34,829 nucleotides of DNA from Sphingomonadales bacterium (GTDB lineage Bacteria > Pseudomonadota > Alphaproteobacteria > Sphingomonadales > JAKSBY01), in assembly GCA_022360855.1 (NCBI GenBank), contig JAKSBY010000565.1:1-34829 (forward strand), in the 5' to 3' direction. This document shows positions 11,171 through 32,096 of the stretch, in pieces. The notes beneath the pieces are model-generated. The model was not told the DNA's origin and ran no database searches. It saw only the letters and a list, made by a program, of their open reading frames with translations. Made by a program: the position numbers and the translations under genes. The stretch's first letter is position 1; each line of letters begins with the position of its first letter.

Positions 11171-11538
11171 GACTGCCAGTTGAATAGCAACGGCTTTTGT
11201 TTCAGCCAAGATGCTCGGGATCAGGCTGCTCCGCGCACTTCGAAACCGACAACGCCCAGTTTCGCAGCCATTATCCCATGCGCACGCCGGCGATATCCGT
11301 CATAGGCGGCGGCCGTGCCCTCGGCGCCATCATCGGCACACGAGTGCCAGCACCATGAAAGCAAAAAGCAAGACCGGCTGACATACGTGTTTCCCTGTTT
11401 ATCCCATTCGTCAGTCTCCACCCTTCGATTCCGACTTGGATTCACCGTTTTTTCCGCGATCCAGATCCACCTAACGGGCAAGAGCAGCGTTCGATGAGCG
11501 CAAGGTCTCTCTAACCGCGATCTCGCATTTAAAACATT

Positions 11539-11558
11539 TACATTAAAACTAAAATGTT
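11539..11558. promoter_or_regulatory. Candidate operator copy B: TACATTAAAACTAAAATGTT
   Basis: Palindromic, upstream of the TonB receptor at 11698; lies within a perfect 8-bp inverted repeat aaacattt/aaatgttt (11532-11539 and 11552-11559). Confidence 0.5.
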
Positions 11559-11697
11559 TCTACTATGCCTCACAACTTCTCCCTCGGGGAAAGCCGCCTG
11601 GATCGGCTCGCCGTGAGGGGCAAAAAATGGGTTTGCCGCATGCGCCGGCCCGTAGCGGGGGTTCTTGCGACGCCCGTTGGAATCTGAGGAGGAAACA

Positions 11698-14331
11698 ATG
11701 AAATCGAACAGGCAAGCGCTGCTTGTTGCAGCCGCAGCTCTCGGCGCGCTCGGGACAACGTCCGGCGGCATTGCGCAGAATGCGGAGGACCACGAGGAAG
11801 AGATGGAAATGATGGTCGTTGTGGGCAGCGCGATCCGCACACCGACCGCAGAATCCGATACAACGTCGCAGCCGGTGCAATATCTGACGCGTGAAAGTTT
11901 CGACCTGACGCCCGCCGACTCGATCGCCGATTTTCTGCAACAGCTTCCGGTCGCGACCGGTTTCGGCCGCACCTCCATCAACGACGAGTACAACGGCGGC
12001 CGCGCGTCGATCAACCTGCGCGGTCTCGGCCAGCAATACACCCTCGTCCTAGTCGACGGGCGCCGGCTTGGCGGCGAGAATGTTCCCGACATCGGTGCGA
12101 TCCCGCCCGGTGCGATCGAGGGTATCGAGGTGCTGAAGACCGGCGCATCGGCCATCTACGGCTCCGATGCCGTCTCCGGTGTGGTCAACATCCGCCTGCG
12201 CAAGAATTACGAAGGCATCGAGTTCCACTCGTCTTACGGCGGCGCCACCTTGGGCGGTGGCAAGACATTCCGTGTGGGGTCGGTTTTCGGTCTTCAGGAG
12301 GGGCCGTTCTCTTTCACCGGCAGCTTTGAATATCAGGACGATAAAGGCTTCCAGAAGTTCCAGCGCGAGCTCACCCGGAGCCGTGACCACACGCCCTTCG
12401 GTGGCCTGGACCGGCGCAGTGGCACCATGACAGAGCCGCACCAGATCTTCCTGGCCACTGGTGAGCGGTTGGTTATGGACACCTCGCGCTTTGGCCCGGG
12501 CGTCGTGGCCACAGGCCCGGCGGACTTTGTGCCGCGCACGCCGGACTTTGCCATGTCCGGACAGGAGCAATCCAAACAGCCGCCCCAGGAACGCTGGTCG
12601 GCCCATTGGGCTTCGGAATACGAGTTCATGGATGGCGCGGTCAGCCTTTATACGCGCGGCTATATCGACAACCGCCAGCGGAATCTCATCATCCACCCGC
12701 CGATGACGTTCGTGACCGTTTCCGCGGATAACCCGAACAACCCGTTCGGTGTGGACGCGGGCGTCTTTTATCTCTTCAGCCCGACCGTCGATGTTCAAGG
12801 CGTCGACTTTGGCGAGACACCCTTCGACGACCTGATGCGGATCGATTCGAATACGCTGAACCTGCAAGGCACGGCCGGATTGGAGGGAACCATCGCCGAA
12901 CGCTTCACCTGGGACCTCGGCTATACCTATTTCAGGGAACGCGCCAACATATTCCAGCGCAATGACATTGCCCTCTCCCCCGCTCGGGAAGCCGTGGACT
13001 CGGGCCTGTTCAATCCCTTCTGCATCTTCTGCAACGGTCAGGATGTCATCAATGCCGTCAGTGTCGACACATTTACCCAACGCATCAACAAGGTGCAGAC
13101 CATCGACTTCACGATCTCCGGCGATCTCTTCGATTGGGGCGGCGGCACCGTCCAGTTCGCGGCCGGCTACCAGCACCGCGAGGTCGACTTCGCCCTTCGG
13201 CCGGACGAAGCGGCGCAAACCTACAGCTTCTGGTGGAACGGCTCGGCGTTCGGTCCGGAAAGTGGCAGCCGAAACGTCGATGCGGGATTCATCGAGCTGC
13301 GCGCGCCGCTCTATGACAATCCGGATGCGGATTTCTTCGAAGGAGCAGAGATCAGCGGGGCCGTTCGCCACGAAAACTATAGCGATTTCGGCTCATCGAC
13401 CGTCTGGCAGACTTTCGGCAAGCTGACATTCGTGGACGAGCAGGTCATTTTCCGCGGCAGCTTCGCCAAGACCTTCCGGGCACCGAGCGTCGATGCCTTG
13501 ACGACGCCCGAGGTGACGGCCTTCCAGGGCGGTCTCGCCTTCTTCGATCCGGTCATCGACGGGATCGTCAGCGAGCTCAACATCACATCGGGCGGCAATC
13601 CGGATCTCGCTCCGGAGATCGGCAATACCTTCAACTTTGGCCTTATCGTGCGCCCGGAATCGGTGCCCAACCTGTTCTTCAGCATCGATTATTGGCGTAC
13701 GGACATCACCGATATCATCCGCACACCGAGCATTCAGGGCCTGTTCTTCGGCACCGAGACGGGGGGGTCGCTGAATCGCAATACGCAATCGGGCATTCCC
13801 GATGTCGATGTCCGTTTGGATAACGGGGGCAAGCTGGAAGCCGCCGGGATCGATTTCAGCGCCACCTACCATTACGAGGTTGGCCGGAACGACCTGTCCT
13901 TCTTCGCCAACGGCACCCGGCTCACCACATTCGAGGAAAGCGCCAATGCCGAGACCATCGTCCATCTGGGCGAGTTCAGCCAGTCCTTCAACGCGATTCC
14001 GAAATGGAAGGTAGTGACCGGTGTCACACTGGACCGCGGCCCGCTGGACGCTGCGTTGACGTTTAACTACACCGGCGGCGTGCGCGATGCCGTGGCCGAT
14101 ATCGAGCGCAAGACGGATTCTTACGAGACCATCGATATTCAAGTTGGCTACGACCTTGGCGCCTCGTTCGGCAACGGCATCCTGTCCGACACGCGCATCT
14201 ATGTCGGCGCCGACAATGTCCTGGGCCACAAACCGATCTTCATCGCCGAGTTCTCGGACGCCGCGCTGGAGACATCGCCGAATACACTTCTCGGACGGTT
14301 CATTTACGCCGGCATCAGGAAGAAGTTCTAG
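11698..14331 (+). CDS. TonB-dependent receptor (no STN domain)
   Basis: ATG 11698 preceded by aggagg; signal peptide MKSNRQALLVAAAALGALG; plug with SINLRGLGQQYTLVLVDGRRL and IEGIEVLKTGASAIYGSDAVSGVVNI; terminal IYAGIRKKF. Confidence 0.95.
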   Translation: MKSNRQALLVAAAALGALGTTSGGIAQNAEDHEEEMEMMVVVGSAIRTPTAESDTTSQPVQYLTRESFDLTPADSIADFLQQLPVATGFGRTSINDEYNGGRASINLRGLGQQYTLVLVDGRRLGGENVPDIGAIPPGAIEGIEVLKTGASAIYGSDAVSGVVNIRLRKNYEGIEFHSSYGGATLGGGKTFRVGSVFGLQEGPFSFTGSFEYQDDKGFQKFQRELTRSRDHTPFGGLDRRSGTMTEPHQIFLATGERLVMDTSRFGPGVVATGPADFVPRTPDFAMSGQEQSKQPPQERWSAHWASEYEFMDGAVSLYTRGYIDNRQRNLIIHPPMTFVTVSADNPNNPFGVDAGVFYLFSPTVDVQGVDFGETPFDDLMRIDSNTLNLQGTAGLEGTIAERFTWDLGYTYFRERANIFQRNDIALSPAREAVDSGLFNPFCIFCNGQDVINAVSVDTFTQRINKVQTIDFTISGDLFDWGGGTVQFAAGYQHREVDFALRPDEAAQTYSFWWNGSAFGPESGSRNVDAGFIELRAPLYDNPDADFFEGAEISGAVRHENYSDFGSSTVWQTFGKLTFVDEQVIFRGSFAKTFRAPSVDALTTPEVTAFQGGLAFFDPVIDGIVSELNITSGGNPDLAPEIGNTFNFGLIVRPESVPNLFFSIDYWRTDITDIIRTPSIQGLFFGTETGGSLNRNTQSGIPDVDVRLDNGGKLEAAGIDFSATYHYEVGRNDLSFFANGTRLTTFEESANAETIVHLGEFSQSFNAIPKWKVVTGVTLDRGPLDAALTFNYTGGVRDAVADIERKTDSYETIDIQVGYDLGASFGNGILSDTRIYVGADNVLGHKPIFIAEFSDAALETSPNTLLGRFIYAGIRKKF

Positions 14332-14369
14332 CGCATATATTAAAGCGGATAGATACTTGACCGCCCATA

Positions 14370-14417
14370 GGGCCCGTAGAACAGGATGACGGGAAATGCC
14401 TCCTGCGTTACGGGCCC
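14370..14417 (+). terminator. Stem-loop downstream of the TonB receptor
   Basis: Perfect 9-bp arms gggcccgta / tacgggccc with an inner cagga/tcctg stem, starting about 40 nt after the stop. No strong U-run. Confidence 0.45.
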
Positions 14418-14593
14418 ACCGGCAAGCCAAAAAAGCCGCCGGCCTGCTCAAATGTCGGACATTGCCTCCCTGTTAGACGCAAGCGGAAAAAAGGCAGGCG
14501 TTTTCTCTAAAAACCAGGAAAACCCGCCCGCAATGACTGCGATACGGGAAAAAATCCCTGCAACGTATTTGCTATCCTCGCACGGTCTGAAAA

Positions 14594-15580
14594 ATGCAAT
14601 CGTCGCTTGGCCCCATCGAAACCGTCACGCTTCATAACGTCCTCATGGCCCGAGAACGCATCCGCGGGATCGCATCGCGGACGCCGTTGAGGCCCTCCCT
14701 CGCCCTGGGACGCGACACCGGCCGCGCGGTTGGTCTGAAAATGGAGATCATGCAGGCGACGGGGGCGTTCAAGCTTCGCGGCGCGGCCAACTGCATCCTG
14801 GCGCTCGATCCCGAGCGACGCCGGAGCGGCATCGTGGCGGCGTCCTCGGGCAATCATGGTCGAGCGGTCGCCTATGTCGCGCAGAAACTCGGCATCCCAT
14901 CGACCATCTGCGTATCGGAGCTGGTCCCGCCGGCCAAGGTCGCGGCGGTCGCGAGTCTCGATGCGGAGGTTATCGTGACCGGACCGGACCAGGATGCGGC
15001 AATCGCCGCCGCCCGCGAAATCGCGACGACGCAGGGCCGGGCCTATATCTGCCCGTTTGACGACCCCCACGTCATCGCCGGACAGGGCACCATCGCGCTC
15101 GAAATCATGGAAGACTGGCCGGATGTGGAGACCGTCATCGTTCAGGTCAGCGGCGGCGGCTTGGCCGCCGGCGTCGCGATGGTTCTGAAAACCATCAATC
15201 CCGAGATTCGGGTGATCGGCGTGACCATGGAGCGAGGCGCGGCCATGTATCACAGCCTGCGGGCGGGCAAACCGGTGCATGTGGACGAAGTCGCTACGCT
15301 GGCCGATGGCCTTCAGGGCGGCGTGCTGGCTGAGAACCGCCATACCTTCGGTATGTGCCAGCGATATCTTGACGAGATCATGCTGGTATCCGAAGACCAG
15401 ATCGCCGACGCCATAACATATGCCTTCACAAAGGAGCGCCTGATCCTGGAAGGCGCCGGCGCCTGCGGCATCGCCCTGCTTAGAGACAAGCGCGCCGCCC
15501 AGCTCGGGCAGCATATCGTTGCCATCTGCACCGGCGACAATATCGATCCGGGCAAACTGCTCGAGATCGTGGGCGACTGA
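14594..15580 (+). CDS. PLP-dependent threonine/serine/hydroxyaspartate dehydratase family, EutB-like
   Basis: Fold-type II PLP motifs TGAFKLRGAANC, ASSGNHGRAVAYVA, VSGGGLAAG; EutB-like block GVTMERGAAMYHSLRAGKPVHVDEVATLADGLQGG...ENRHTF. Confidence 0.88.
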   Translation: MQSSLGPIETVTLHNVLMARERIRGIASRTPLRPSLALGRDTGRAVGLKMEIMQATGAFKLRGAANCILALDPERRRSGIVAASSGNHGRAVAYVAQKLGIPSTICVSELVPPAKVAAVASLDAEVIVTGPDQDAAIAAAREIATTQGRAYICPFDDPHVIAGQGTIALEIMEDWPDVETVIVQVSGGGLAAGVAMVLKTINPEIRVIGVTMERGAAMYHSLRAGKPVHVDEVATLADGLQGGVLAENRHTFGMCQRYLDEIMLVSEDQIADAITYAFTKERLILEGAGACGIALLRDKRAAQLGQHIVAICTGDNIDPGKLLEIVGD

Positions 15581-17195: not shown

Positions 17196-17533
17196 AGCCT
17201 GGCGGCATCGACGCAGGTCACCGAATTACCGCGCTTTCCAGAAAATCTGTCAGGATCTCGTTGTGAATTCGGTGATTTCATCGTCTCAATCCCTCCTGTG
17301 CGACAGATGGTTACGGCCGCCCTCTAATTCCCCGGCTTCCATATCCGCGCACTCCCATTTTTCGGATGCGCGTAACCTGGATTGCTGATCGGCGAGTTTC
17401 TTCGCCAAGTGGCGGGCTGGTTTAGCGTTTGCGCAGACTCGGGTGCCCTTTCCGCTAAGCATCGGCATCGATTCGCACAGCACTCTGTATCAGCACGAGC
17501 TAGCTTGGCCTTGAGCATCAGGGCACGATACGG

Positions 17534-18994
17534 ATGACCGCGCGACAAAAAAACACCGATTCCGGCCACGAGCTGACGACGGACGAAGCTTTCGAAATCG
17601 GCATGCTGGACGCTCATGACCAGGCGGCGCTGCAAGAGAGAAGGGAATTGGCTCCCGGCGGACTCGTCGAAGCCGCCATTCTCAGGATCGAGCAGATCGA
17701 TCCGCAGCTCAACGTCATCACCTTTACCGACTTCGACAAGGCACGCAGGCGAGCCCGGCGCGCCACCGGCGACATGGCCGGCGTTCCGTGGCTGCTTAAG
17801 GACGGCCTCGATTATCCCGGTATGCCCTGCCGCGCCGGTTCCCGATCGAGGATATCGGCGCCGCCGGGCACGTGCTCGTTTCCGTATACCGACCGGCTCG
17901 ACTCCCAGGGATTGGTTGCCCTCGGCAAGGCCAATGCGCCGGAGTTCGGACTGCTGCCGACCACCGAGCCCGTGCTCTACGGGCCGACACGCAATCCCTG
18001 GGCGCGCGACCGCTCGCCGGGCGGCTCAAGCGGCGGCGCGGCGGCCGCCGTCGCCTCCGGCATGGTCCCGCTTGCCCACGCGGCCGATGGCGGCGGCTCG
18101 ATCCGCATCCCCGCCTCCTGTTGCGGCGTCATCGGGTTGAAGCCGGGCAGGGGCAGCAATCTGCGCGCGCGCGCACCGCATCTTATCGAAGATCTGATCG
18201 CCTGCGACGTGCTGCTGTCGCGCTCGGCACGCGATGTCGCCTGGGCGTTACACGCCGCATCGCCCGGGGGCGACGTGCCGGCGGAACGGCCGGCTTCCGG
18301 CAATCGCCGCCGCGTGGCGCTCTGCATGGACAATTTGTGGGGCGATGCGCCGGAACCGCAGGTCTGCGACGTGATCGCCCAAACGGCGGAGCTATGCGCG
18401 TCTCTTGGCCACGATGTGGAAGAGCGTTCCCTGCCCGTTGACGGCCCGGCCGTGCTGAAGAGCTTTCAGACCCTATGGGGATATCTCGCCCGCGACGTGG
18501 TAGCGCTTTGTTCGGCCGCCGAAAACACTGACCTGCTGGAGCCCTGGACGCGTGACCTCGCTGCATGGAGCGATCGTCTCGGCGTTCTCGACATGGAAAG
18601 CCTGCTCCTCGAAACCGCGCGCGCCACGGCCGCGCTCGACGCGTTCTTTGCGGACTACGATCTCATCCTGTCCCCGGTTCTGCGCCGGCCCGCGCTGGAG
18701 ATCGGCGCGCTGTCGCCGACCCGCGCCTTCGACCATATCATGACGCTGATGTATGATTACGTCTCCTACACGCCGTTGCACAATCTGACCGGCTTTCCCG
18801 CAATCTCACTGCCGGTGTTTTCCGGGGCCGATGGCGTACCCATCGGCAGCATGTTCGCAGCCGCGCGCGGACGCGAGGACCAGCTCCTCGGGCTTGCCGG
18901 CGAACTCGAGGCAGCGACGTCCTGGACCGACCGCTGGCCACCCATATCTGTCGGGGCGCTGGGCGGGAAGAAAAATCAAGTCGATGGCGACTAG
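17534..18994 (+). CDS. Amidase (amidase signature family)
   Basis: Catalytic Lys in WLLKDGL; signature SPGGSSGGAAAAVASGMVPLAHAADGGGSIRIPASCCGVIGLKPGRG. Confidence 0.95.
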   Translation: MTARQKNTDSGHELTTDEAFEIGMLDAHDQAALQERRELAPGGLVEAAILRIEQIDPQLNVITFTDFDKARRRARRATGDMAGVPWLLKDGLDYPGMPCRAGSRSRISAPPGTCSFPYTDRLDSQGLVALGKANAPEFGLLPTTEPVLYGPTRNPWARDRSPGGSSGGAAAAVASGMVPLAHAADGGGSIRIPASCCGVIGLKPGRGSNLRARAPHLIEDLIACDVLLSRSARDVAWALHAASPGGDVPAERPASGNRRRVALCMDNLWGDAPEPQVCDVIAQTAELCASLGHDVEERSLPVDGPAVLKSFQTLWGYLARDVVALCSAAENTDLLEPWTRDLAAWSDRLGVLDMESLLLETARATAALDAFFADYDLILSPVLRRPALEIGALSPTRAFDHIMTLMYDYVSYTPLHNLTGFPAISLPVFSGADGVPIGSMFAAARGREDQLLGLAGELEAATSWTDRWPPISVGALGGKKNQVDGD

Positions 18995-19028
18995 TACTGC
19001 CGTACACTATTCTGAGATAGTGCCGACG

Positions 19029-20360
19029 ATGCACGGTTCCCTGCTTTTCCTGGTCCTTCTGCTTTCCGCCCCCATGGCACGTGCCGACGAGGTCGCGGAG
19101 TGGATCGCGCGAGAGGCGGTCCCCCTGAGATCGGTGGAGCTGACGGACGATTTCTCCGACCTGGCCCCGCTCAAGCCCATCATTGGCGATGCACGCATCA
19201 TCAGCTTTGGCGAAGGAACGCATGACGTGCATGAGTTATGGGCCTTCCGAAACCGTTTGTTCGCCTACCTGGTGGAGGAACACGGCGTGACCGCCATGGC
19301 CGCGGAAACCGGCCTGGCGCCATCCTTCGCCACCGATGACTACGCCCTCGGCAAAGACGTCTCGCGCATCCGCGCGGCCCAGGGGGTGTTTTCGTGGTCC
19401 GATAGTGTTTTCGACGAAAATCTGCAGATTGTGGATTGGATGCGGGCCTATAACGCACGCCCGACGACCACGCGCAAGATCCGGTTCTACGGCCTGGAAA
19501 TGAGCGGATGCATGCGCCCCGAGGGCCGCCCGCTGATCGAAAGCGCGCTCAGCTATGTCGCCCGGCTGGATCCGGCGCGCAGTAAAGCCAGCATGCGGGA
19601 ATTCGCGCGCCTCCTGCAAAAGTTCAGTCGCGACGGCTATGGCGCGCTTACGGCAGACCAAAGAACATCTCTCCTGGCCGCCGTTCAGGACCTGGTAAGC
19701 CTTTTCGAGCGTCGGCAGGTGGTGTGGATATCCCGCACCTCGGCGCTCCAATACGAACGAGCCTATCGGCAGGCGGTCGCGGCGCGCCAGCTAACAGCCC
19801 ACTTTCGCATGAAAGGCGAAGGCCGGGATATCGCCGCCGCCCAGAATCTGCGCTGGGCGCTCGAACGGGAGGGGCCGGAGGGGCGCCTCTTCGTCTTCGC
19901 CCATAACAGCCATGTGGCGAAGTGGCGGAAGCGCCCCGAAAACGACGACGATCTGCACAGCACCATGGGCGAATTTGTCAACGACTACTTCGGCGAAGAC
20001 ATGGTGGTCATCGGCTCGCTCTACGACCGCGGCACGGCGCGCGACCTGCTGGGCCTTTTTCGGCCCAGGAACGAAACCTACACCGTCCCCCCGTCAAAGC
20101 CCGGCAGCTTGAACGGATTGGCCGCAAAGTCCGGAAGGGCCCGCTTCCTGCTCGACCTGAAAAAGGTCCCGGACTCGGGGGCGGTCCCGCAGTGGTTCTC
20201 ACGCTTGAGAACCATTCGCAACATCAACGTCAGGAGCGGCTATCACGAGATCGATACGCTCGCTGCCTTCGATGCCCTGGTCTTTTTGAGGGACATCACG
20301 CCCCTACGTTTGAATACGAAGGCGAATTCCGTGACCGCGCCTCACGGCTGCACGCGGTAG
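19029..20360 (+). CDS. Erythromycin esterase family protein, exported
   Basis: Signal peptide MHGSLLFLVLLLSAPMARA; IISFGEGTHDVHELWAFRNRLFAYLVEEHGVTAMAAETG; VFAHNSHVAKW. Alternative start at 18984 overlaps the amidase end. Confidence 0.9.
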   Translation: MHGSLLFLVLLLSAPMARADEVAEWIAREAVPLRSVELTDDFSDLAPLKPIIGDARIISFGEGTHDVHELWAFRNRLFAYLVEEHGVTAMAAETGLAPSFATDDYALGKDVSRIRAAQGVFSWSDSVFDENLQIVDWMRAYNARPTTTRKIRFYGLEMSGCMRPEGRPLIESALSYVARLDPARSKASMREFARLLQKFSRDGYGALTADQRTSLLAAVQDLVSLFERRQVVWISRTSALQYERAYRQAVAARQLTAHFRMKGEGRDIAAAQNLRWALEREGPEGRLFVFAHNSHVAKWRKRPENDDDLHSTMGEFVNDYFGEDMVVIGSLYDRGTARDLLGLFRPRNETYTVPPSKPGSLNGLAAKSGRARFLLDLKKVPDSGAVPQWFSRLRTIRNINVRSGYHEIDTLAAFDALVFLRDITPLRLNTKANSVTAPHGCTR

Positions 20361-22063
20361 AATTCAACGTCGGTTATCCAGCCGAACTGGTAGGTCAGCA
20401 CAAGACCGGTGAGCGCGCCACCCCGCTCTCTCGTGAAACGGATCACCAACCGGTCGGGGATGGCTACGAACTCGTCCTCGATCAGGGGCTCGAATGTGAA
20501 TGGCGATATGGAGCGGGGCTCCTTTTCAAGGATGCGGGCCATCAGCTTGCCGCCTTCGACGCTGAATCGATAGGTGGCGTCGACCTCGGGGCTGTAATAG
20601 TCGCCTGCATATTCCGCGATCTGCCGTTTCGCCAGGCTGAGCCTTTCAACGCGCTCGAACCGCCCGGCCCCGTATTTGCGACCCTGCTTTTGTATGAAGA
20701 AGCGGGCGCCGGCCTCCGACCGCCCCTCGAACTCGATGATTAGGTTCTGCTTGTTTCGGAAACGGCTCATGGCGACGGGCTCGAAGATGCTGGGCGACGC
20801 ATCGCCGGTAACAAGAAGACCGTTTCCGCGGCTCTCGACAATCATCGGCAGCCGTAGCTCGTTCTCTCGGTACACCCCCGTGAAGTCCTTCAGCTGCGCG
20901 GGCGATAGCGTGATCGCCGGCTCCTTAGGATCGGCCTGCCCATCGCTCGCGAGATCCAGGAATATGTCGGCAAGGCCCATCACCACCGGCTGGGCATAAA
21001 TCCCGTTGTTGCAAAACCCGAAAACGCCGAGGGCGCGGTCGGGAAAGATCACCGTATGCGCCTTATAGCCATAGCCCGAGCCGCTATGGCCGATTGTTTT
21101 CAGGCCCCGGTAACGAAGAAGCCTCAGTCCGAAGCCGTAAGGCACGGGCGATCCATCGCGCAACCGGCCGTTGGCGCGCAGCATCCGCGTCAGCTCCGCA
21201 CCCCCGGCAAGCCTGCTCTCGTCGGCAAACAGATTGGCCGTCCATTTTGCAAAATCATCCAGTCTTGTCATGAGACCCGCCGGGCCCCAATCGCCCGGGG
21301 CCTCGGGCAACCACTCTTCGCCGCGCCATTTCTCCTGAGTGTAGGAGTATGGAAGCGCCCGCCCATCCTTGCCGCGCGTGGCCGTGCCGAAATAGCTGTC
21401 CTTCATCCCGAGCGGACGAAAGATGTTCTCCTCCACATAATCCGCGAACGCCTGTCCGCTCGTGCGCTCTATGAGCTCGGCCAGCAGCAGGTAGTCGGAA
21501 TTGCCGTAGCGATAGTCCGTTCCCGCCGGGAAGTTTGTCGCACGCTGCCGGGCCAACAATCCGACACGGCTGTCTTGGCCGAGGTAGCGCCGCATCTTGC
21601 CCGTAAGCAGGATCAGCCGGCCGATATCGCGCAATCCATTGGTATGGTGTATGAGATCCCGGATCGTGATCGGCGCGCCGTAGTCAGGAATCTCGGGAAC
21701 GTATGCCCGGATATCGTCACCCAGGGAAAAATACCCCTGATGTGCGGCGAGCGCGACGGCGGCGGCGGTAAACTGCTTCGTGACCGACGCCACGCCAAAG
21801 ACCAAATCGGGCGTATTCGCAATGTCGTGTTCAATGTCGGCAAGTCCGTAGGCGCCCTGATAGACCCACGACCGGGTATCCAAATCCAGAACGCCGAGGG
21901 CGCACCCCGGTGCGCCGGCCTCATCAAGCTCGCCAACGAAGACATCGGCGCGCTCAATGGCTTCGGCAACACCGGATACCGTGGCGACCTGGCCCCAGCA
22001 AGGCGGAGCCAGAAGGAGGAAAGTGCCCAGGAACGCGATTTTCACGATAGACATTCTGCACAT
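20342..22063 (-). CDS. Class C beta-lactamase-like serine hydrolase with C-terminal extension, exported
   Basis: SVTK (SxxK), YGN motif, HSGSGYGYKA; start probably 22054 (MSIVKIAFLGTFLLLAPPCWG signal peptide). Confidence 0.93.
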   Translation of the reverse strand: MCRMSIVKIAFLGTFLLLAPPCWGQVATVSGVAEAIERADVFVGELDEAGAPGCALGVLDLDTRSWVYQGAYGLADIEHDIANTPDLVFGVASVTKQFTAAAVALAAHQGYFSLGDDIRAYVPEIPDYGAPITIRDLIHHTNGLRDIGRLILLTGKMRRYLGQDSRVGLLARQRATNFPAGTDYRYGNSDYLLLAELIERTSGQAFADYVEENIFRPLGMKDSYFGTATRGKDGRALPYSYTQEKWRGEEWLPEAPGDWGPAGLMTRLDDFAKWTANLFADESRLAGGAELTRMLRANGRLRDGSPVPYGFGLRLLRYRGLKTIGHSGSGYGYKAHTVIFPDRALGVFGFCNNGIYAQPVVMGLADIFLDLASDGQADPKEPAITLSPAQLKDFTGVYRENELRLPMIVESRGNGLLVTGDASPSIFEPVAMSRFRNKQNLIIEFEGRSEAGARFFIQKQGRKYGAGRFERVERLSLAKRQIAEYAGDYYSPEVDATYRFSVEGGKLMARILEKEPRSISPFTFEPLIEDEFVAIPDRLVIRFTRERGGALTGLVLTYQFGWITDVEFYRVQP

Positions 22064-22086
22064 TTGCCCAGGGGCCGGGCTTTAGG

Positions 22087-22125
22087 AAAAAACAGGCGGA
22101 CCATGCCTGATTCGCATGGCCCGCC
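22087..22125 (-). terminator. Rho-independent terminator of the third TonB receptor gene
   Basis: Minus strand: ggcgg-g-ccatgc-gaatcag-gcatgg-t-ccgcc stem (one mismatch) followed by TGTTTTTTCC. Confidence 0.8.
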
Positions 22126-22148
22126 ATCCACTAAAGACCGGAAATGGC

Positions 22149-24230
22149 CTATAGTCCAAGCCTCACCCGCGCAAGAAAGGTCCGCGGCGGGTTGATGTCT
22201 ACGTTGTTCGACGACCCGAAGCCGGAGAAGATATCGGCATTGGTCACGTTGTTGGCGAGGATGCCGAGCTCGACGTGATCGGTCACCGAATAGTTGATGC
22301 CCAGGTCGATCCGCACGAAGCTCGGCACTTCCAGCGCATTGCCGGCGCCGAGAAAGCGGTCGTCGGTGAACTGCAGGGCAGCGGTCAGGCCAACCCCCTC
22401 GAACGGTCCGGAGCCGATGTCATACCGCCCGGTGAGCGAGAAGGTGTTTTCCGGCGCGTAGCGGAGGTCGGTACCGTCCAGGGAGGGGTCGTTGCTGACC
22501 ACGTTGCTCGTCATGTAGGCATAGGCCGCATAGACGGTGAGACCGGGAAGAGGCTCGCCGCTCACGGACGCCTCGAACCCTTTCGTGGTGACGCTGCCCA
22601 GGGGAACCTGAAACCCGGGATTATCCAAATCCGGGGTCAGAACATCCGGCTTTTTCACCCTGAAGAGGGAAACCGTACCGGACAAGCCGCCCATACCGAA
22701 CTTGACGCCGCCCTCGTATTGCACGCTGCTCTCCGGCGCGAACACCGTATTGTCGGCAGTCGTTCCCGAACGGGGAATGAAGGATTCCGAACGGTTGCCG
22801 AAAACGGATATGGCGTCGGTGACATCGGCAACGATGCCGAACATCGTAGGCACGTCGGACTGGCTGACCTTGTTGCCGGTGTTCTCCGACGTGATCTTCG
22901 CGTAGCGAAGCCCGGCGATCAGATGCACACGGTCGCCGACCGACATCCGGTCCTGTATGAAAACCCCGACGGTCTTGTCGTCGATCTCGGAAGGCAGGAA
23001 ACGGATCCTGTTATCCAACTCCAGGACCGCCCCATATACCGGCGCGTACAAATCGATCGGATTCACAATGAACCGCGTCTGCAGATTGTTGAATTTGGTC
23101 GTGAAGTATTCGCCACCGACCGAGACTTGGTGAGTGATCGGACCGGTGACGAATTTACCTGCCAGGTCGACGTAGCCGGAATAGTCGTCGCCATCGCTGA
23201 CATTGCCGATCTGCAGCCTGTTCAACGTACGAAAATCATCCTGAAGAAGACCGATGATCGACTGATCGTCCCGCTCGACATGCGTATAGGAAAAAACCGC
23301 CCTGGCGCTCAAAGAATCAGTGAACTGATGCCTCAGGGTAACCTCGATATTCGCCGTCTCCCGGGTCCGCCCGACGCCTTCCTCATCGGGACTTTGCACA
23401 TAAAAGGATCTCGGGTAGTCGCCGTTTGGGTTTTCGGTGAGAAGGCCGGCCGCGGGTCCGCCCAGATATCCGCCGGCAGGCTGATCGGTTTTGGCATAAA
23501 CGCCGAGAATATTGAGGGTTGTATCGGAGGACAGCGCCCACTCGATCACCGGCGCGATGGTCAGCTTTTCCTCCTCCCAAAAATCAAGAAAACTCTCCCT
23601 GTCCTGGTAGACCGCGTTCAGCCGGACGCTTACGCTGTCTGTAATCGGACCTCCGACATCAAGCGTAAAGCGCTGATGGTCGAAGCTGCCGAGCTCGGCC
23701 GCGGCCTCCAGATGGAACTCTTCCCGCGGCGTTTTTGTGACGATATTGATGACAGCGCCGGGCTGCATGGAGCCGTACAGGACCGACGCCGGCCCCATCA
23801 AAACCTCGATACGCTCCATGAGCTGCGAGTCCAGCGGGAAATTGGCGGTGTTCAGCCGGGCACCGTTGATGACCTGGGTGATGCTGAACCCGCGCACGAA
23901 ATACGCATCCGCCAGCCATCCGATTTGAGAATATTGCGTAGAGGCCGACGGCACGAACCGCACGATATCGGTGATATCCACCGCAGCCACGTCGTCAAGG
24001 AAGCCCGTATCGAAGACCTGGGCGGTCTGCGGCACGTCGCGCAAGCTGTCCTCCCGGCCCCGGCCGAAGACGGTAATCGACTCTAACGCCCCGAGGCTAT
24101 CCTCGTTACCATCCTGCGCCCGTGCCGTATCCACCCCCGCAACAAGCGCTGTAGTCGAAAGCAGCGTAACGATGAATTTGCGGCATACTGAATGAGGAGA
24201 CCGCATGGCTCGTGGACTTCTTATACACAT
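22149..24230 (-). CDS. TonB-dependent siderophore-type receptor
   Basis: ATG at 24230 preceded by GGGAAGGAAAT; signal sequence FIVTLLSTTALVAGVDTARAQ; plug VPQTAQVFDTGFLDDVAAVDITDIVRFVPS...YGSMQPGAVINIVTKTP; C-terminus NPPRTFLARVRLGL. Confidence 0.96.
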   Translation of the reverse strand: MCIRSPRAMRSPHSVCRKFIVTLLSTTALVAGVDTARAQDGNEDSLGALESITVFGRGREDSLRDVPQTAQVFDTGFLDDVAAVDITDIVRFVPSASTQYSQIGWLADAYFVRGFSITQVINGARLNTANFPLDSQLMERIEVLMGPASVLYGSMQPGAVINIVTKTPREEFHLEAAAELGSFDHQRFTLDVGGPITDSVSVRLNAVYQDRESFLDFWEEEKLTIAPVIEWALSSDTTLNILGVYAKTDQPAGGYLGGPAAGLLTENPNGDYPRSFYVQSPDEEGVGRTRETANIEVTLRHQFTDSLSARAVFSYTHVERDDQSIIGLLQDDFRTLNRLQIGNVSDGDDYSGYVDLAGKFVTGPITHQVSVGGEYFTTKFNNLQTRFIVNPIDLYAPVYGAVLELDNRIRFLPSEIDDKTVGVFIQDRMSVGDRVHLIAGLRYAKITSENTGNKVSQSDVPTMFGIVADVTDAISVFGNRSESFIPRSGTTADNTVFAPESSVQYEGGVKFGMGGLSGTVSLFRVKKPDVLTPDLDNPGFQVPLGSVTTKGFEASVSGEPLPGLTVYAAYAYMTSNVVSNDPSLDGTDLRYAPENTFSLTGRYDIGSGPFEGVGLTAALQFTDDRFLGAGNALEVPSFVRIDLGINYSVTDHVELGILANNVTNADIFSGFGSSNNVDINPPRTFLARVRLGL

Positions 24231-24383
24231 ATTTCCTTCCCTTTTTTTGCACGGATAATTGTTGCTTTCAAAGCTCTGGTCAGCCGCGAGCCTTGGCGGG
24301 ACGATCCGTTTGCAGCGTTGACGGTCGCCTGGATCCCTCATCATCCCTGACTGAGAACACTATTCGCGTGCCGCAGTGGCCGC

Positions 24384-24521
24384 TTAGCACCCTGATCTCG
24401 CGGCCTAGCTTTTGGGATCGGGGCCCGCATATGCCAGGGAAACCGAGCGCCTAGGGCGGAATGATTGCGCTCCTCGGCCCCGCCGCAGCTCAAAAGCTAG
24501 GCCGCGAGATCAGTATGCTAA
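24384..24521. repeat. Long inverted repeat/hairpin: perfect 23-bp arms (24392-24414 and 24491-24513), extended to 29 of 31 pairs
   Basis: ctgatctcgcggcctagcttttg ... caaaagctaggccgcgagatcag exact reverse complements; outer ttagca (24384-24389)/tgctaa (24516-24521); inner cggggcc (24419-24425)/ggccccg (24476-24482). Confidence 0.9.
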
Positions 24522-24554
24522 TTGCCCGGCGTAGCGCGTTGTTAATGTCGTCGA

Positions 24555-25748
24555 TTGGCGCTCATCGGAGACGCAGTTCTGGCATCAAATCCGACACTGG
24601 TTTTTGCGATCCTTGCGGCGATTGCCGCGGCGGTCTACGCGATGAGCATAACGCCCAGGTTCAGCGGCCTGTTCAGGCTGGCACCGCCTGTGGTCTGGCT
24701 TTATTGCCTGCCGATGCTTCTATCGAGTCTCGGCCTGCTGCCGTCCGAAAACGAACTGTACCGCTGGCTGGCGACCTATATCCTTCCGTTCTCGCTGTTG
24801 TTGCTGACGCTTACGGTCGACCTCAAGGCAATGGCGAAGATCGGGCGGCCGGCGATTATCATGCTGCTCGCGGGCACCGGCAGTGTCGTGCTGGCCGTCG
24901 CCGTCGTATTCCTCTTCACACGCACGTTTCTGCCGAGCGACGCCTGGCAAAGCCTTGCGATGCTGACTGCTTCCTGGATTGGCGGATCGGCCAACATGCT
25001 GGCGATGCAACAGAGCCTGGAGGCGGACGCCTCGCTTTTGGGGCCGGTCATTGTAACGGATACCGTAGTTGCCTATGGCTGGCTGGGCGCCGCAATCGCG
25101 CTGAGCGGCTTCCAATCGGCGTTCGATCGATATCTGCGCGCCGATCCGGCTATCCTCGACACGGTAGACGCCGAATTGGGCCGCACCCAGGCAACACGTA
25201 AGCCGGCCAGGATTGACGACATCATGATCATTGTCGGTGGCGGTTTGGCGACCGCAATCCTGGCCCGGACACTCGCCGAATCCCTGCCGCCGCTGGGCGA
25301 CCCGGTCATCATCAGCGCCTCGAGCTGGACGGTTCTTTTCGTTGTTACGCTCGGCATTGCCTTGTCTTTCACTCGGATGCGCCGGCTCTCGGATGCCGGC
25401 GCCGGTGACATCGGATATTGCGGTCTCTACCTGCTTCTGCCGGCGATCGGAGCGCAGGCAGACCTACGCGCCATTCTCGAGGCGCCGCAGCTCATGGCGG
25501 TCGGGCTGCTGATCCTGCTCATCCATATCGGCGTTTTGGCGATAACGGCACGACTATGCAGGTTCCCGTCTTTCTTCCTGATCGCGGGGAGCTTCGCCAA
25601 CATTGGAGGTGCCGCGAGCGCACCGGTCGCGTCCGCCGCCTACCGCGCCAGCCTTGCTCCCGTCGGCGCGCTGATGGGCGTCGCCGGCTATCTGCTCGGC
25701 ATCTATATTCCGCTCGCCGTCGCGGCCTTGCTGGCGGCAATGGCTTAG
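24555..25748 (+). CDS. DUF819 family (YjcL-like) integral membrane protein
   Basis: Multiple TM segments; FSGLFRLAPPVVWLYCLPMLLSSLGLLP and TASWIGGSANMLAMQQSL typical of DUF819; TTG start proposed. Confidence 0.88.
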   Translation: MALIGDAVLASNPTLVFAILAAIAAAVYAMSITPRFSGLFRLAPPVVWLYCLPMLLSSLGLLPSENELYRWLATYILPFSLLLLTLTVDLKAMAKIGRPAIIMLLAGTGSVVLAVAVVFLFTRTFLPSDAWQSLAMLTASWIGGSANMLAMQQSLEADASLLGPVIVTDTVVAYGWLGAAIALSGFQSAFDRYLRADPAILDTVDAELGRTQATRKPARIDDIMIIVGGGLATAILARTLAESLPPLGDPVIISASSWTVLFVVTLGIALSFTRMRRLSDAGAGDIGYCGLYLLLPAIGAQADLRAILEAPQLMAVGLLILLIHIGVLAITARLCRFPSFFLIAGSFANIGGAASAPVASAAYRASLAPVGALMGVAGYLLGIYIPLAVAALLAAMA

Positions 25749-27904
25749 TTCGCTTGATTATGCCCGGCACGGCCGGAAGCCTGCAGAGTGTTCTCGATGA
25801 ACGCGTCGATTTTCCTCAGGTAGCCGATTTGGTTGCGATAGAGACGAATGCTGTGCGCTTCGCCCGGCATGATAAAGGCATCGACGGTCTTTCCACGTTT
25901 CTGCAAGGCGAGGTAGAGTTCAAGCGTCTGCTGCATGGCGGCCGAGCCGTCATTGTCGCCGTGCAGGAACAGTACCGGCTCCCGGCCCCACTGATCTATC
26001 TTTGATATGGCTGAAGACTCGTAGGCGAGCCGCTCCAGCTCCAGCCGTTGCGGAATATTGAACTGAAGGGGTTCGTTGAAGTCCTTTTCCATTTCGACGA
26101 CCCAGTCTCCGACACCGGCGGAGACAACGCCGAGCGCAAAGACATCGGAGCGCGCCAAGGCGTTGGTGACGATATGCCCGCCGTAGGAATGGCCGAAGGC
26201 CACAATCCGGCCGGGATCGATTTCAGGTATGTTTGCCTTCAGATACTCTGCGGCGGCGATAAAATCCCGGGCATCGTCGGCTCCGCGGCCGCCATATCTC
26301 TCCGGTTCACGGAAGTCCAGGCCATAGCCGATACCGCTTCGGTAATTGACGCTCAGGACAACACATCCCCGGCTTCGGTAGTATTGCAGTATCTGAGGAT
26401 AGCCGAAAAAGGCTTTCCAGACGGGATAGACCTTGTCCCGCGGGCCGCCATGGGCGTGAACCACCACCGGGCACCCTTTTTTGATCTTCCGGGGGCGCCA
26501 TAGGACGGCGGGTATCTTCATTCCATCGAACGAGTCATACACTATGACCTCGGCATCGCCGGCCTTCCTTGTGATAGGATCGCCGGGGTGCGGCCCGGTG
26601 CTCAGCTGTATCTCGCCGTTCTTTTCGGTACGAATCATCAATCGTTCGGGGACCGACGCGCTCGCATGGACGTAGAGTATGGCGCCGTTTTTCATGAACT
26701 GCGCCTTGGAGCGCATACCCGGTTTGCCGGCCGCCACGCGCCGGGGCTTCAAGCCGGTGCGCAGAGCCATGCGATAAAGGCCGAGGCGATGGGGTTCGGA
26801 TTGCGAATTGGCCCAATAGGCAATGTTTTGTCGGTCGGGCGACTGCACCGCACCGTCGACCTCAAAATCTCCAGGCGTCAGAAGCCGCGCGTCTCCGCCG
26901 GACGCGGAAACGCCGTAAAGCAGCTTCCAGCCGGTTTTTTCATACGGAAAAACCAGTGTGCCGTCCGCCAGCCAGAGAAGGTTCCCCGCGCCGCCGAGGC
27001 CTGAATAGCCACTGGCACGAAACCCGTTGAAGCGAGCGCCATAGCCCACATCGGAGGTCCAGACCTGGTTTCCCAGACCGCTCAGCGCGTCGGCAACGAC
27101 AACCGAAAACGGCGCGCCTTCACGGTGATTGGAAAACCGCCAAGTCTTCGGTTCGTAGCCAAAACGAATGAACGCGATCTTGTCGCTTCCCGGAGACCAG
27201 ACGGGACTCTGGTCGATTCCGACGCCGGGCGCCATGTAAAGGAGGCGCCGCGTATCCAAATCGAACACACCTACGAAGGCATATTTGCCCCGATCATATC
27301 CCGAGCGGTCGCTCGTAAACGCAAGCTTGGTCCCGTCCGGCGAGAGCAGCAAATCACCGAGCGCCCCTCGCGTGGCGAAGAGACGAAGCGGTGCTGCTTC
27401 TCCCGACAAGGCATAGGACCAGACGGCGCCGCCTTTCAGCACGAAAAGCCTGTTGCCATCCGGTGAAATAACAAGATCGTCACCAAACGCGCTTTCGCCA
27501 AGGTCAAGGCGTTTAACGTCTCCATCCCTCAGCGAGAGAACGAAAACCATCGGCACGGGCGGATCGGGGAGATGCGCCGGATTAAATCCCGCCTTGCCGC
27601 GAACGAAGACAAGGCGGCTTTGGCCGGGGACGAATCCGACCAGCCTGATCTCCGCTCCGTCATCGATGTCATAGCCTGTTACCTGACGGGCCTCGTATTG
27701 CGGCGCCTCGGCCAGGAATATGTTCCAGATTCCCCTTGTCTGTTCGACCCAGGCGACCGTTCCGTCCTCGGCCGCCGCAACGTCCCTGACAGCCGGTATG
27801 GCCAGGAGCTCCTCAAAAGCAAATGGCCTTGGCGCGGCCGTCTGTGCGGCGGCACCGGAGATGCCCATACATAAGCACAGCAGCATCAAAACCAGCCTGT
27901 TCAC
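25745..27904 (-). CDS. S9 family prolyl oligopeptidase, exported
   Basis: Beta-propeller with SPDG repeats; catalytic domain VVVHAHGGPRDKV, GHSYGGHI, FLHGDNDGSAAMQQTLELYLALQKRGKTVDAFIMPGEAHSI; signal peptide MNRLVLMLLCLCMGISGAAAQ. Confidence 0.95.
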   Translation of the reverse strand: MNRLVLMLLCLCMGISGAAAQTAAPRPFAFEELLAIPAVRDVAAAEDGTVAWVEQTRGIWNIFLAEAPQYEARQVTGYDIDDGAEIRLVGFVPGQSRLVFVRGKAGFNPAHLPDPPVPMVFVLSLRDGDVKRLDLGESAFGDDLVISPDGNRLFVLKGGAVWSYALSGEAAPLRLFATRGALGDLLLSPDGTKLAFTSDRSGYDRGKYAFVGVFDLDTRRLLYMAPGVGIDQSPVWSPGSDKIAFIRFGYEPKTWRFSNHREGAPFSVVVADALSGLGNQVWTSDVGYGARFNGFRASGYSGLGGAGNLLWLADGTLVFPYEKTGWKLLYGVSASGGDARLLTPGDFEVDGAVQSPDRQNIAYWANSQSEPHRLGLYRMALRTGLKPRRVAAGKPGMRSKAQFMKNGAILYVHASASVPERLMIRTEKNGEIQLSTGPHPGDPITRKAGDAEVIVYDSFDGMKIPAVLWRPRKIKKGCPVVVHAHGGPRDKVYPVWKAFFGYPQILQYYRSRGCVVLSVNYRSGIGYGLDFREPERYGGRGADDARDFIAAAEYLKANIPEIDPGRIVAFGHSYGGHIVTNALARSDVFALGVVSAGVGDWVVEMEKDFNEPLQFNIPQRLELERLAYESSAISKIDQWGREPVLFLHGDNDGSAAMQQTLELYLALQKRGKTVDAFIMPGEAHSIRLYRNQIGYLRKIDAFIENTLQASGRAGHNQAN

Positions 27905-27908
27905 CTTT

Positions 27909-29387
27909 TTAAAACTCGGCAGCGACGGTTTCTTTCAACGCCTCGATCGCCTGCTTGTCAAAGACCCGGCCGGAGAAAATCACCGCCGCGATCTCGGCGG
28001 CATTGGCGATATCCCGCAGCGGATCGGCCTCCAGCAATACAAGGTTGGCAGACATGCCGACGGCGATTCCCCCGAATTCGCCCTCACGTCCAAGATATCG
28101 GGCCGGCACGATAGTAGCCGCACGCAGAATCTCCATCGGCTCCAGGCCGGCCTTCGCAAGATGGCCGAGCTCGTCGTGATAGCTGAAGCCCGGGAAGACC
28201 ATTGTATCGTTCGCATCGGTGCCGACCATCACCGGGACCCCGGCTTCGTGCGCCATCCGGGTAATCGTCAGCCCATGCCGGTAGAAATGATCATAAAGCG
28301 CCGATACGGCGGGGGAGACGGACGCGGTCTCGTCAAGATCGCCACGCCACTTCCGGGCCATAAGCGGTTCCGGGATATATCTGAGCCGCGGGTCGTTGCG
28401 ATAGGCGGCCTCGCCGGCGCGCGCGTCCATTTCCCGCGTCTCGTGGGTCGGCACATAGTAAACGCCGAATCTTGCGAGACTGTCGAGCACCGCCTTGCAC
28501 CGCGCCGGATTGTACCCATCAAGCGTTTCCCGCAGCCGCGTTTCGTCATCGGGCGCTTCGCCGGCGGCCATTGAGGCGCGGTAGCTCGGCCCGTAGTCAC
28601 TGCAGTCGTAAAGCAGGACGCGCGCGTGCTCGATGGAACGATGGCCCGCCGCGGCGGCTTCCAGAACATCCATGGCCCGCGGAACATGGCCGGCCACGGG
28701 CAAGCCGAGCTTCTTTGCCTCGTCCATCATCGCGAAATAGGCCGCTGGCGGAACGCTGGAATAGGATTTGATGAAATCCACCCCGCGCTTTTTCAGAAAC
28801 CGCACAAGCTCACGCGCCTCTGCCGCGGTCTCGGGGTGGTAGAAATCCGGCGCCCCTTCCGGAAGTTCCTCGCGATATGCGACCCCTTTGACGAAGTCGC
28901 TCGAGAGCGCGAGAAGATGGGGGCCGACCGTCTCCCCTGCTTCGATCCGCGCGCTCAGGACCCGCATATCGTCAACACAAACGGACTCGTCACCACGCGG
29001 CTCCCAGCAATCGGACGACATGTCACGGACGCCCGTCACGCCATTGGCGATGAACAGCGGACCGCTGAAACGTGCGAGCAACGGATGCTCGGCCATATGC
29101 ACATGCATGTCGATCAATCCCGGGATCAAAAACCGGCCCTCACCGTCAATCTCCTCGGCGGCGGCATAGTCGGGGGCATCCTGCGATCCTGTGATCGCGA
29201 CGATCCTGCCGTCATCGATGAAGATCGTGCTGTCCGGACGCACCGTCCGCGTGGCCGGATCGATAAGAGTGACGTTGGAAACGGCGAGCGCTACCGCCGT
29301 TGGCAGCGGCGGCACCGCCTTGGACCCACACCCGGATAACAGCAGCGCCAGACAAAGCCCGCCGATTTTCCATACCCCCGATAGCAT
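27909..29387 (-). CDS. Amidohydrolase family lipoprotein-like protein
   Basis: Lipobox-like LALLLSGCGSKA; metal motif LIPGLIDMHVHMAEH; GTDANDTMVFPGFSYHDELGHLAKAGLEPMEILRAATIVPARYLG. Confidence 0.93.
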   Translation of the reverse strand: MLSGVWKIGGLCLALLLSGCGSKAVPPLPTAVALAVSNVTLIDPATRTVRPDSTIFIDDGRIVAITGSQDAPDYAAAEEIDGEGRFLIPGLIDMHVHMAEHPLLARFSGPLFIANGVTGVRDMSSDCWEPRGDESVCVDDMRVLSARIEAGETVGPHLLALSSDFVKGVAYREELPEGAPDFYHPETAAEARELVRFLKKRGVDFIKSYSSVPPAAYFAMMDEAKKLGLPVAGHVPRAMDVLEAAAAGHRSIEHARVLLYDCSDYGPSYRASMAAGEAPDDETRLRETLDGYNPARCKAVLDSLARFGVYYVPTHETREMDARAGEAAYRNDPRLRYIPEPLMARKWRGDLDETASVSPAVSALYDHFYRHGLTITRMAHEAGVPVMVGTDANDTMVFPGFSYHDELGHLAKAGLEPMEILRAATIVPARYLGREGEFGGIAVGMSANLVLLEADPLRDIANAAEIAAVIFSGRVFDKQAIEALKETVAAEF

Positions 29388-29624
29388 CGTTACCTCCCTA
29401 ACCCGATGGCGTACCGCTGCTTCGTCTGGATACGCCCAGTTTCCATCATCTGCTCTGGTCCAATCAGTTCCAACGAATACGAGACCGGGGGCCGCGGCTC
29501 TGTCTTAGCGCTTGAGGTCTGCCCTTAGCGGACGGCCGCGGTCCGGATCAAATCGCTAACCCCGCTTCTTAAAGGCAAAGAGGCTTGCCATGAAGTTGAG
29601 AGATGCTCGGACAACAATGAGGGC

Positions 29625-30689
29625 ATGACCGGGATACAGCAAGGGATGCGAATGGAACGCAACGCGCGGGCTGCCAAAGACGGGCATCCTCCTCCGCCTT
29701 ACCTTTTGTTTCTGGGCGACGTACCGCTGCAGCCGATGGCAAAAACGGCGGCGGGCCTGCTGCAGTGGCGCCCTGAACTTTGCGTTGGAAAGCTCACGCT
29801 TCCGGGATGTGCCGTCGAGATGGACATTCCGGAAATGACCCCCAAAGAGGCTGTAGGAGCGGGTGCGAAAACTCTGGTCATTGCCGTGGTCAATCCGGGG
29901 GGAACACTCCCTGACGCATGGATTCCGGCCCTTGTAGAAGCGCTGGAAGCCGGTTTGAATATCGCCTCCGGCGCGCATGTTTCGTTGTCCGTCTTCCCTG
30001 ACCTGAAGGACACCGCAGCCCGGCTCGACAGAACCCTCTACGACGTTCGACTGCCGAAAATGACGTTCGATGTGGGCGATGGTGTCAAGCGGGCAGGCAA
30101 ACGGATCCTCACGGTGGGGACGGATTGCGTGGTCGGCAAGAAGTATACCGCCCTCGCGCTGGAAAAAGCGTTGCGGGAACGGGGCGTGGACGCTGATTTC
30201 CGTGCCACCGGTCAGACCGGCATCCTTATCGCGCGGCGCGGCGTCGCGATAGACGCGGTCACCTCGGACTTTATCTCGGGCGCCGCCGAATGGCTTTCGC
30301 CGGCCAACGCCCCGGACCACTGGGACGTTATCGAGGGGCAAGGCTCGTTGTACCATCCCTCATTTGCCGGCGTCACCCTCGGGCTCATTCACGGCAGCCA
30401 GCCTGACGCGCTTATTGTTTGCCACGAGCCGATACGCAGACAACTCCTGAGCCTGCCCTACCCTATCCCGCCTCTTAAAGAGTTCATGAAGACCAACCTC
30501 GACGCGGCGCGGCTGACAAACCCCAACGCCATCATCGCCGGGATGAGCCTGAACACATCAAAGATGTCGGCCCAAAGCGCCGAAGAAGCGGTTGTCGCCA
30601 TGGAACAGGAGACAGGATTGCCCTGCTGTGACCCGATTCGTCACGGCGCCGGCAAGATTGCCGACCATCTGATTTCCGTTCTCGCCTGA
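29625..30689 (+). CDS. DUF1611 family protein (DgcN-like)
   Basis: P-loop-like VGTDCVVGKKYTALAL, ATGQTGILIARRGVAIDAVTSDFISGAAEWLSP, DVIEGQGSLYHPSFAGVTLGLIHGSQPDALIVCHEP: characteristic DUF1611 pattern. Confidence 0.9.
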   Translation: MTGIQQGMRMERNARAAKDGHPPPPYLLFLGDVPLQPMAKTAAGLLQWRPELCVGKLTLPGCAVEMDIPEMTPKEAVGAGAKTLVIAVVNPGGTLPDAWIPALVEALEAGLNIASGAHVSLSVFPDLKDTAARLDRTLYDVRLPKMTFDVGDGVKRAGKRILTVGTDCVVGKKYTALALEKALRERGVDADFRATGQTGILIARRGVAIDAVTSDFISGAAEWLSPANAPDHWDVIEGQGSLYHPSFAGVTLGLIHGSQPDALIVCHEPIRRQLLSLPYPIPPLKEFMKTNLDAARLTNPNAIIAGMSLNTSKMSAQSAEEAVVAMEQETGLPCCDPIRHGAGKIADHLISVLA

Positions 30690-30716
30690 GTTCTGCCGAT
30701 GCCGGTCCGGCACGGG

Positions 30717-31784
30717 CTAGGAACGATCGGTCCCCTTCGGCGCAAACTGTGCCATGCGGCGCATCTGGATCGGCGAAACACCGAAAGCGGCCTTGAACGC
30801 GCGCGTAAAGCTGGGTGGATGGCCATATCCAATTTCCAGCGCGATCTCGATCATCGATTTATTGGAGTTTTTCACGAGTTCCAGCGCGTGTTCGGCCCGC
30901 AGCTTATCGCGAACGCTGCCGACGGTATCCCCATAAAGATGGCGAAAGCCGAGCTGCAACTTCTGCCGCGTCATATCAACAGCGTAGGCAAGCTCGGCGA
31001 TATTCGGCGGTTCATCCAACGAGGCCTTCAGATAACGCATGGCGCGCTTTACTTTCGCGCGCTCTTTTGGCGATAACGTCATACGGTCCGCATCGCACGA
31101 AGACGCGGCGCCGAATTCCTGAAGCATGAGATAAACGAATTCCAGCGCCTTTGCCGAAAGATACGCGCGCCGATATCCGGCCTGCATCCCGCATTCCAAC
31201 AACTGGGTCGCGACATAATAGGCATTTGGCGACAACATGATATTGCGATATGGAACACGTGCCGTGCCCGAAACGAACTGGTTAATCGCGTCCGGAACAT
31301 CCCGAGGGCCGAGACCGGTGGCCTCAAACAACAAATCGCGATCGATAATGATACTTACCCAGCGAAGACTTTGGCCGCGCTCGTAAACCGTTTCAAACCC
31401 CTCCCCATGATCCATGCCGTAGACCGTGCAACACCCATTGCTGAGCTCACCATCCAACCCCTGTGAGCCGCTGATTTCGACACCGCCATTGAGCACCGCC
31501 GTCAACACCAGCTTGCGCCCGAAACTATGGCGGCGGAACAGAGACCGTTGCGCGACCATATCGACGGTAATCAACCACAGCCCATCCTGGAGCTGGCGAA
31601 ACTCCCATTCCCCGGTCGCGAATCTCTTGTCATAGATGCAACGATACCCGGCGTCATCGAGGATTGGCTCGCGCCAGCCGTCGGGCAGGCGCTCGGCTGA
31701 CTTCGACGCCAGCACAGAGAGCAAGCTGTCAAAATCACGATGCGCATGCGCGCCGACGATTACCGCTTCTTCCACGCCATTCAC
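30717..31784 (-). CDS. AraC family transcriptional regulator
   Basis: C-terminal HTH: NIAELAYAVDMTRQKLQLGFRHLYGDTVGSVRDKLRAEHALELVKNSNKSMIEIALEIGYGHPPSFTRAFKAAFGVSPIQMR. Confidence 0.95.
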   Translation of the reverse strand: MNGVEEAVIVGAHAHRDFDSLLSVLASKSAERLPDGWREPILDDAGYRCIYDKRFATGEWEFRQLQDGLWLITVDMVAQRSLFRRHSFGRKLVLTAVLNGGVEISGSQGLDGELSNGCCTVYGMDHGEGFETVYERGQSLRWVSIIIDRDLLFEATGLGPRDVPDAINQFVSGTARVPYRNIMLSPNAYYVATQLLECGMQAGYRRAYLSAKALEFVYLMLQEFGAASSCDADRMTLSPKERAKVKRAMRYLKASLDEPPNIAELAYAVDMTRQKLQLGFRHLYGDTVGSVRDKLRAEHALELVKNSNKSMIEIALEIGYGHPPSFTRAFKAAFGVSPIQMRRMAQFAPKGTDRS

Positions 31785-31947
31785 CCTTTACTAAAGCGCG
31801 CCGCAGGAGCTGATACGAAGGAACGACTCTATCATTAATTGGAAGGCCAATCCATAAATTGACACATAAGCTTCACAGTTGCGACTGGCACAGATTGCTC
31901 ATCCCATGCCGACGCCACTCCCTGTCATAAAGCAGCTTTTTGAAATT

Positions 31948-31966
31948 GCAACTCATTTTCATTAAC
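31948..31966 (-). promoter_or_regulatory. Fur-box-like sequence upstream of the AraC gene
   Basis: Minus strand GTTAATGAAAATGAGTTGC matches 13 of 19 positions of GATAATGATAATCATTATC by eye. Confidence 0.3.
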
Positions 31967-32067
31967 TCCCTGTGAAAAAACCTGATGCTGTTGATAGGCG
32001 TGGTTTTCCGGCCGGCTGGAATGTCCTTCCCCTCTAAAACCGTTCCAAAATCATCTTAGCATTTTAT

Positions 32068-32096
32068 CGGCTCATCCCCGTGCGTGCGGGGAACGC
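32068..32096 (-). repeat. Solitary type I-E CRISPR-repeat-like 29-mer
   Basis: CGGCTCATCCCCGTGCGTGCGGGGAACGC; 22 of 29 identical to the E. coli I-E repeat CGGTTTATCCCCGCTGGCGCGGGGAACTC, with conserved CCCCG/CGGGG stem and GAAC/CGG..CAT.. ends. No second unit at the expected 61-nt period on either side. Confidence 0.7.

Follow-up and report, generated by a model that had tools for sequence, protein, structure and literature searches.

The question raised by this locus is what a 138-nt inverted repeat is doing between two divergently transcribed genes, one encoding a TonB-dependent receptor and the other a DUF819 membrane protein. Within the window, that is, the whole 34,829-nt stretch of DNA that was analysed, the relevant features are the following.

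17344-32049, no strand: block shared with a second host, 93.8% identical to its contig C57 (genomes G101/G391)
22149-24230, minus strand: TonB-dependent siderophore-type receptor; the reading frame is open to 24344, with a likely ATG start at 24230 after GGAAGGAAAT
24384-24414, plus strand: left arm, 31 nt, composed of TTAGCA, a 2-nt mismatch and the core CTGATCTCGCGGCCTAGCTTTTG at 24392-24414
24415-24490, no strand: G+C-rich loop or spacer, 76 nt (75 nt in the homologue, 76% identical)
24491-24521, minus strand: right arm, an inverted copy of the left arm, with its core at 24491-24513 and the outer end TGCTAA
24555-25745, plus strand: DUF819 (PF05684) membrane protein, TTG start
30717-31784, minus strand: AraC-type regulator within the shared block, putative reader of the arms

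The cores at 24392-24414 and 24491-24513 were exact reverse complements of 23 bp each, separated by 76 nt, as the first-pass annotation had described. The outward pairing of ttagca with tgctaa that it had placed beyond a 2-nt mismatch was also found, and lengthened the arms to 31 nt (24384-24414 and 24491-24521, 29 of 31 positions paired). A perfect inverted repeat of 23 bp is far above chance expectation, and this was the only one of at least 12 bp with a loop of up to 300 nt in the 34.8-kb window. The DUF819 start, previously placed 34 nt downstream, was corrected to the TTG at 24555, 33 nt past the outer arm. The receptor could start at 24230, about 150 nt from the left arm.

When the proposed RNA folding was carried out, the hairpin reached -86.6 kcal/mol (z -5.35), far below the shuffled sequences, none of which was equally stable, and the arms contributed most of this energy. 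The further inward pairing of cggggcc with ggccccg was present in this fold, but was not conserved in the homologue described below. Neither an intrinsic-terminator-like site, sought as a short G+C hairpin followed by a T-run, nor a sigma-70-like promoter matching the consensus was detected in 24220-24640. Rfam gave no match in 24200-24650 at E <= 1, and none across the window at the gathering score. Inside the arm, the best dyad was no better than in shuffles, and no direct repeat exceeded 4 bp.

The hairpin was single-copy in the MAG to which the window belongs. With up to 3 mismatches allowed, the arms had no other copies in that genome, the second host or a sample of 387 genomes of the class; 100 relatives from the order contained no DNA similar to the hairpin, and no further copy was detected among plasmids and phages. 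When 85,462 species were scanned for the two 15-bp arm ends, as an exact two-arm pattern with a gap of 50-80 nt, one further locus was returned, on contig JANQPV010000052.1 of the alphaproteobacterial MAG IP29b_bin.177 from coral skeleton; the name IP29b is used for a sample in a study of skeletons of the coral Isopora palifera (PMC9868349). In this second host the hairpin was again single-copy and lay at the same position between the same genes; its stem was perfect over 34 bp, and the region folded at -106 kcal/mol (z -10.5). Other contigs of the window's own genome (248 kb) and further retrieved DNA (388 kb, largely of the second host) contained no repeat with arms longer than 20 bp and a loop of 30-300 nt apart from this homologous copy. 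Beyond it, the search for copies in the host genome and relatives that had been suggested yielded nothing. No similar hairpins were found near DUF819 genes in other genera, and distant versions of the cluster were not detected, the other DUF819 relatives being at 45% or less and lacking this neighbourhood.

Comparing arms, loop and flanks at one homologous locus can show whether a hairpin is a control element under constraint or a product of chance or a relic. The arm cores were identical at 46 of 46 positions between the window and the homologue, and the arms themselves were the longest two stretches without any change in the intergenic region (24392-24421, 30 bp, and 24486-24514, 29 bp), whereas not one of its 212 other 23-bp windows was unchanged. 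Identity was 60/62 in the arms, 57/75 (76%) in the loop and 74/87 in the near flanks, the flanks of the hairpin being about 82% identical (arms versus loop, p 0.0004; arms versus loop plus near flanks, p 0.001). The leader of the receptor gene (24231-24383) differed between the two genomes by a 53-nt insertion or deletion. The first-pass annotation had named a unique, unconserved sequence as what would count against it; the hairpin is indeed single-copy in each genome, but its arms are conserved at the one homologous locus found.

The loop, at 76% identity, evolved faster than fourfold sites of the block genes (88%), whereas the arms were only mildly slower than those sites (p 0.03). Other intergenic regions of the block were better conserved, with 14-20% of their windows unchanged, and therefore the inference of selection on the arms leans on the local rate. 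From one comparison of two genomes, the 23-bp arms look selected as sequence, inverted and 75-76 nt apart, the spacer length being nearly fixed (76 nt in the window, 75 nt in the homologue). The core of the stem was wholly unchanged and offered no compensatory changes, and both changes in the outer stem broke pairs. The loop fold did not surpass column shuffles on either strand (z -0.9 and +0.9), and its conservation was rejected. Because both outer-stem changes disrupt pairing and the fold of the loop is unconserved, the constraint appears to act on the sequence of the arms and their symmetric position, and not on the RNA fold as a whole.

The hairpin lies within a 14.7-kb block in which window positions 17344-32049 matched positions 226-15000 of the second host's locus L038 at 93.8% identity; contig C57 was present at the same positions in G391 as in G101. 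The block encodes an amidase, an erythromycin-esterase-like protein, a beta-lactamase-fold hydrolase, the TonB receptor, the DUF819 protein, an S9 peptidase, an amidohydrolase, a DgcN-like DUF1611 protein and the AraC-type protein. By class-level search, the second host belongs to a different family and order from the window's genome. Its block had 61% G+C versus 53-54% around it, and the block's tetranucleotides lay closer to the window's genome (distance 0.147) than to its own (0.251), while on the window side the composition of the block matched its own genome. Given the different order of the second host and the foreign composition of the block in it, the cluster of TonB receptor, peptidase, DUF819, DgcN-like and AraC genes was probably transferred horizontally, and transfer into the second lineage is the simplest reading. 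The sharing could still reflect a chimeric contig, an assembly artefact or mis-binning: both genomes are MAGs, that of the window with 5.5% contamination, and one block junction lies near a contig end.

Further features lie outside the block. Fragments of the 3' end of a CAT-anticodon tRNA were seen in both genomes, at L038 15574-15619 (plus strand), about 0.6 kb beyond the block, and at about 2005-2050 of the window (minus strand), where the fragment is degenerate; they are possible remnants of island attachment. Just past the block edge, window positions 32068-32094 hold a single CGGCTCATCCCCGTGCGTGCGGGGAAC, similar in appearance to a type I-E CRISPR repeat; no second copy was found in the window.

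The hairpin is most likely a commonplace type of element, namely a paired control site, whose symmetry is unusual. Two identical inverted sites between divergent genes of one cluster would most simply be two sites for one protein, and the unconserved fold and fast evolution of the loop favour two arms over a single RNA fold. Our tentative reading, at somewhat less than even confidence, is that the arms form a DNA-level regulatory module through which one protein acts on both the divergent TonB receptor and the DUF819 permease. Two identical binding or promoter units, with a 23-bp core and up to 31-34 bp in all, would stand inverted and back to back between the genes, so that a single protein would control the outer-membrane uptake receptor and the permease jointly. 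As all four arms in both genomes end outward in TGCTAA, two bases past the core, each unit may also carry promoter elements facing its own gene, although no sigma-70-like promoter was detected. We infer that a protein reads the arms, that the AraC-type regulator of the same block has this role, and the sign of the regulation. Of the earlier proposal of a 5' control element for the DUF819 gene, the conservation of the arms supports control in general, but an RNA leader suits the data less well than paired sites in the DNA.

The position of the arms between divergent genes of one cluster speaks for a paired site, as does the AraC-type protein at 30717-31784, the sole DNA-binding regulator recognised within the shared block. 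Among the 387 class genomes, relatives of that protein at E <= 1e-45 were confined to the 2 that carry the block; as the whole block co-occurs, this is not independent evidence linking regulator and arms. Its AlphaFold model, from a single sequence, had a pLDDT of 40 and was left out of the evidence. No arm-like motif rose above shuffles in the cluster's other intergenic regions, including that upstream of the AraC gene, which counts against an AraC-type operator pair, though further sites at other promoters of a regulon are not strictly demanded of one. The lack of a consensus promoter is a further point against. The length of the arms, identical over 23-34 bp, also speaks against a paired site, being more than operators usually need; operator half-sites are rarely identical over such a length, and AraC-type regulators bind as dimers to asymmetric sites of about 17-21 bp. 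As in the paired operators of the AraC/XylS family, which lie between promoters or upstream of them (AraC I1/O2; the inverted half-sites of RhaS/RhaR), there would be two sites per regulator, a spacer free to vary and a regulator encoded near its targets. The half-sites of that family, however, are usually about 17-21 bp and degenerate, against two identical putative sites of 23 bp (to 34 bp) here. In the case of AraC itself, two operators far apart are joined by a DNA loop (PMC4486848).

A stronger form of this proposal, in which the identical outward promoter/operator pair of 31-34 bp and a dedicated AraC-type reader make up a self-contained mobile control module co-driving receptor and permease, is doubtful. 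If it were true, hyperconserved arms around a fast-evolving spacer would represent an unusual operator architecture. To our knowledge, the function of DUF819 proteins is unknown; should the arms act as the switch for a transferable peptide- or siderophore-uptake cluster, they would mark its regulon and offer a testable handle on these proteins.

None of the rival explanations shows all of its own defining features, and the more probable two among them are an RNase III hairpin and a domesticated MITE. An RNA-level element, unlikely but credible, would require the region to be transcribed, as the leader of the DUF819 or receptor gene or as a separate RNA, and its 23-34-bp duplex to be bound or cut by RNase III, setting the mRNA level. 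The very stable stem (z -5.35 in the window, -10.5 for the homologue with its 34 perfect pairs) suits this, as does its size, in the class of elements with RNase III-cut RNA (PMC2649163, PMC10969869); in transcripts carrying Correia/NEMIS elements, processing by RNase III is reported to set the mRNA level. On the other hand, the strict conservation of the core sequence exceeds what pairing needs and no compensatory changes accompany it, both outer-stem changes break pairs, the loop fold is unconserved and Rfam has no match. The last two results also weaken the earlier suggestion of a structured small RNA.

That the hairpin is a single domesticated or relic MITE-like element at a TA target site (IS630/Tc1- or Correia-like), with the arms as terminal inverted repeats, is rather unlikely. 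A length of 138 nt with inverted ends of 28-31 nt lies within prokaryotic MITE dimensions (PMC10969869), and the element is short, non-coding and, with arms of 23-31 bp, comparable to terminal inverted repeats of about 4-30 bp. If the ends are taken as GCACACTG...CAGTGTGC, TA flanks both the window copy and the homologue; TA, however, is self-palindromic and sits inside a longer palindrome, so that its presence on two sides follows by symmetry, and there was no target duplication beyond it. A relic would not be expected to hold both arms better than the flanks. Correia repeat enclosed elements/NEMIS of Neisseria and QMITE2 of Coxiella resemble the hairpin in having 23-29-bp inverted ends within 100-200 bp, possible TA flanks, a stable RNA hairpin and positions near promoters, but they occur in tens to hundreds of copies, whereas the hairpin is single-copy in both genomes, with one further match in 85,462 species, and its arms are conserved and its core is not. 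In neither genome did other matches to the end sequences rise above background. With a single copy per genome and no partner ends, the living MITE family that had been offered as one option is unsupported, and what is left of that option is a single domesticated copy. The TA flanks keep a MITE origin alive, and origin and present function are separate questions.

An invertible switch, in which a recombinase flips the 76-bp spacer to turn a divergent gene on or off, is very unlikely. Searches for invertons target inverted repeats that bracket short intergenic segments close to genes for the cell surface (PMC11892184), and promoter invertons share with the hairpin such repeats by a TonB-receptor gene; unlike them, the hairpin has no recombinase recognised in the shared block and no promoter in its spacer, and its arm lacks the inner dyad usual for recombinase sites. 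Nor was there any sign of inversion, since both assemblies have the spacer the same way round (alignment score 36, versus -12 when inverted). Least probable of all is a functionless inverted duplication made by template switching and kept alike through quasipalindrome correction: there is one independent comparison, and selection on the arms rests on one genome pair, but correction would equalise the arms within a genome; it would not keep them unchanged from one genome to another across a 24% divergence of the loop.

Elsewhere in the window, outside the shared block, positions 6674-11090 encode a second TonB receptor and, beside it, FecR and an ECF sigma factor, which make up a classical set for cell-surface signalling.
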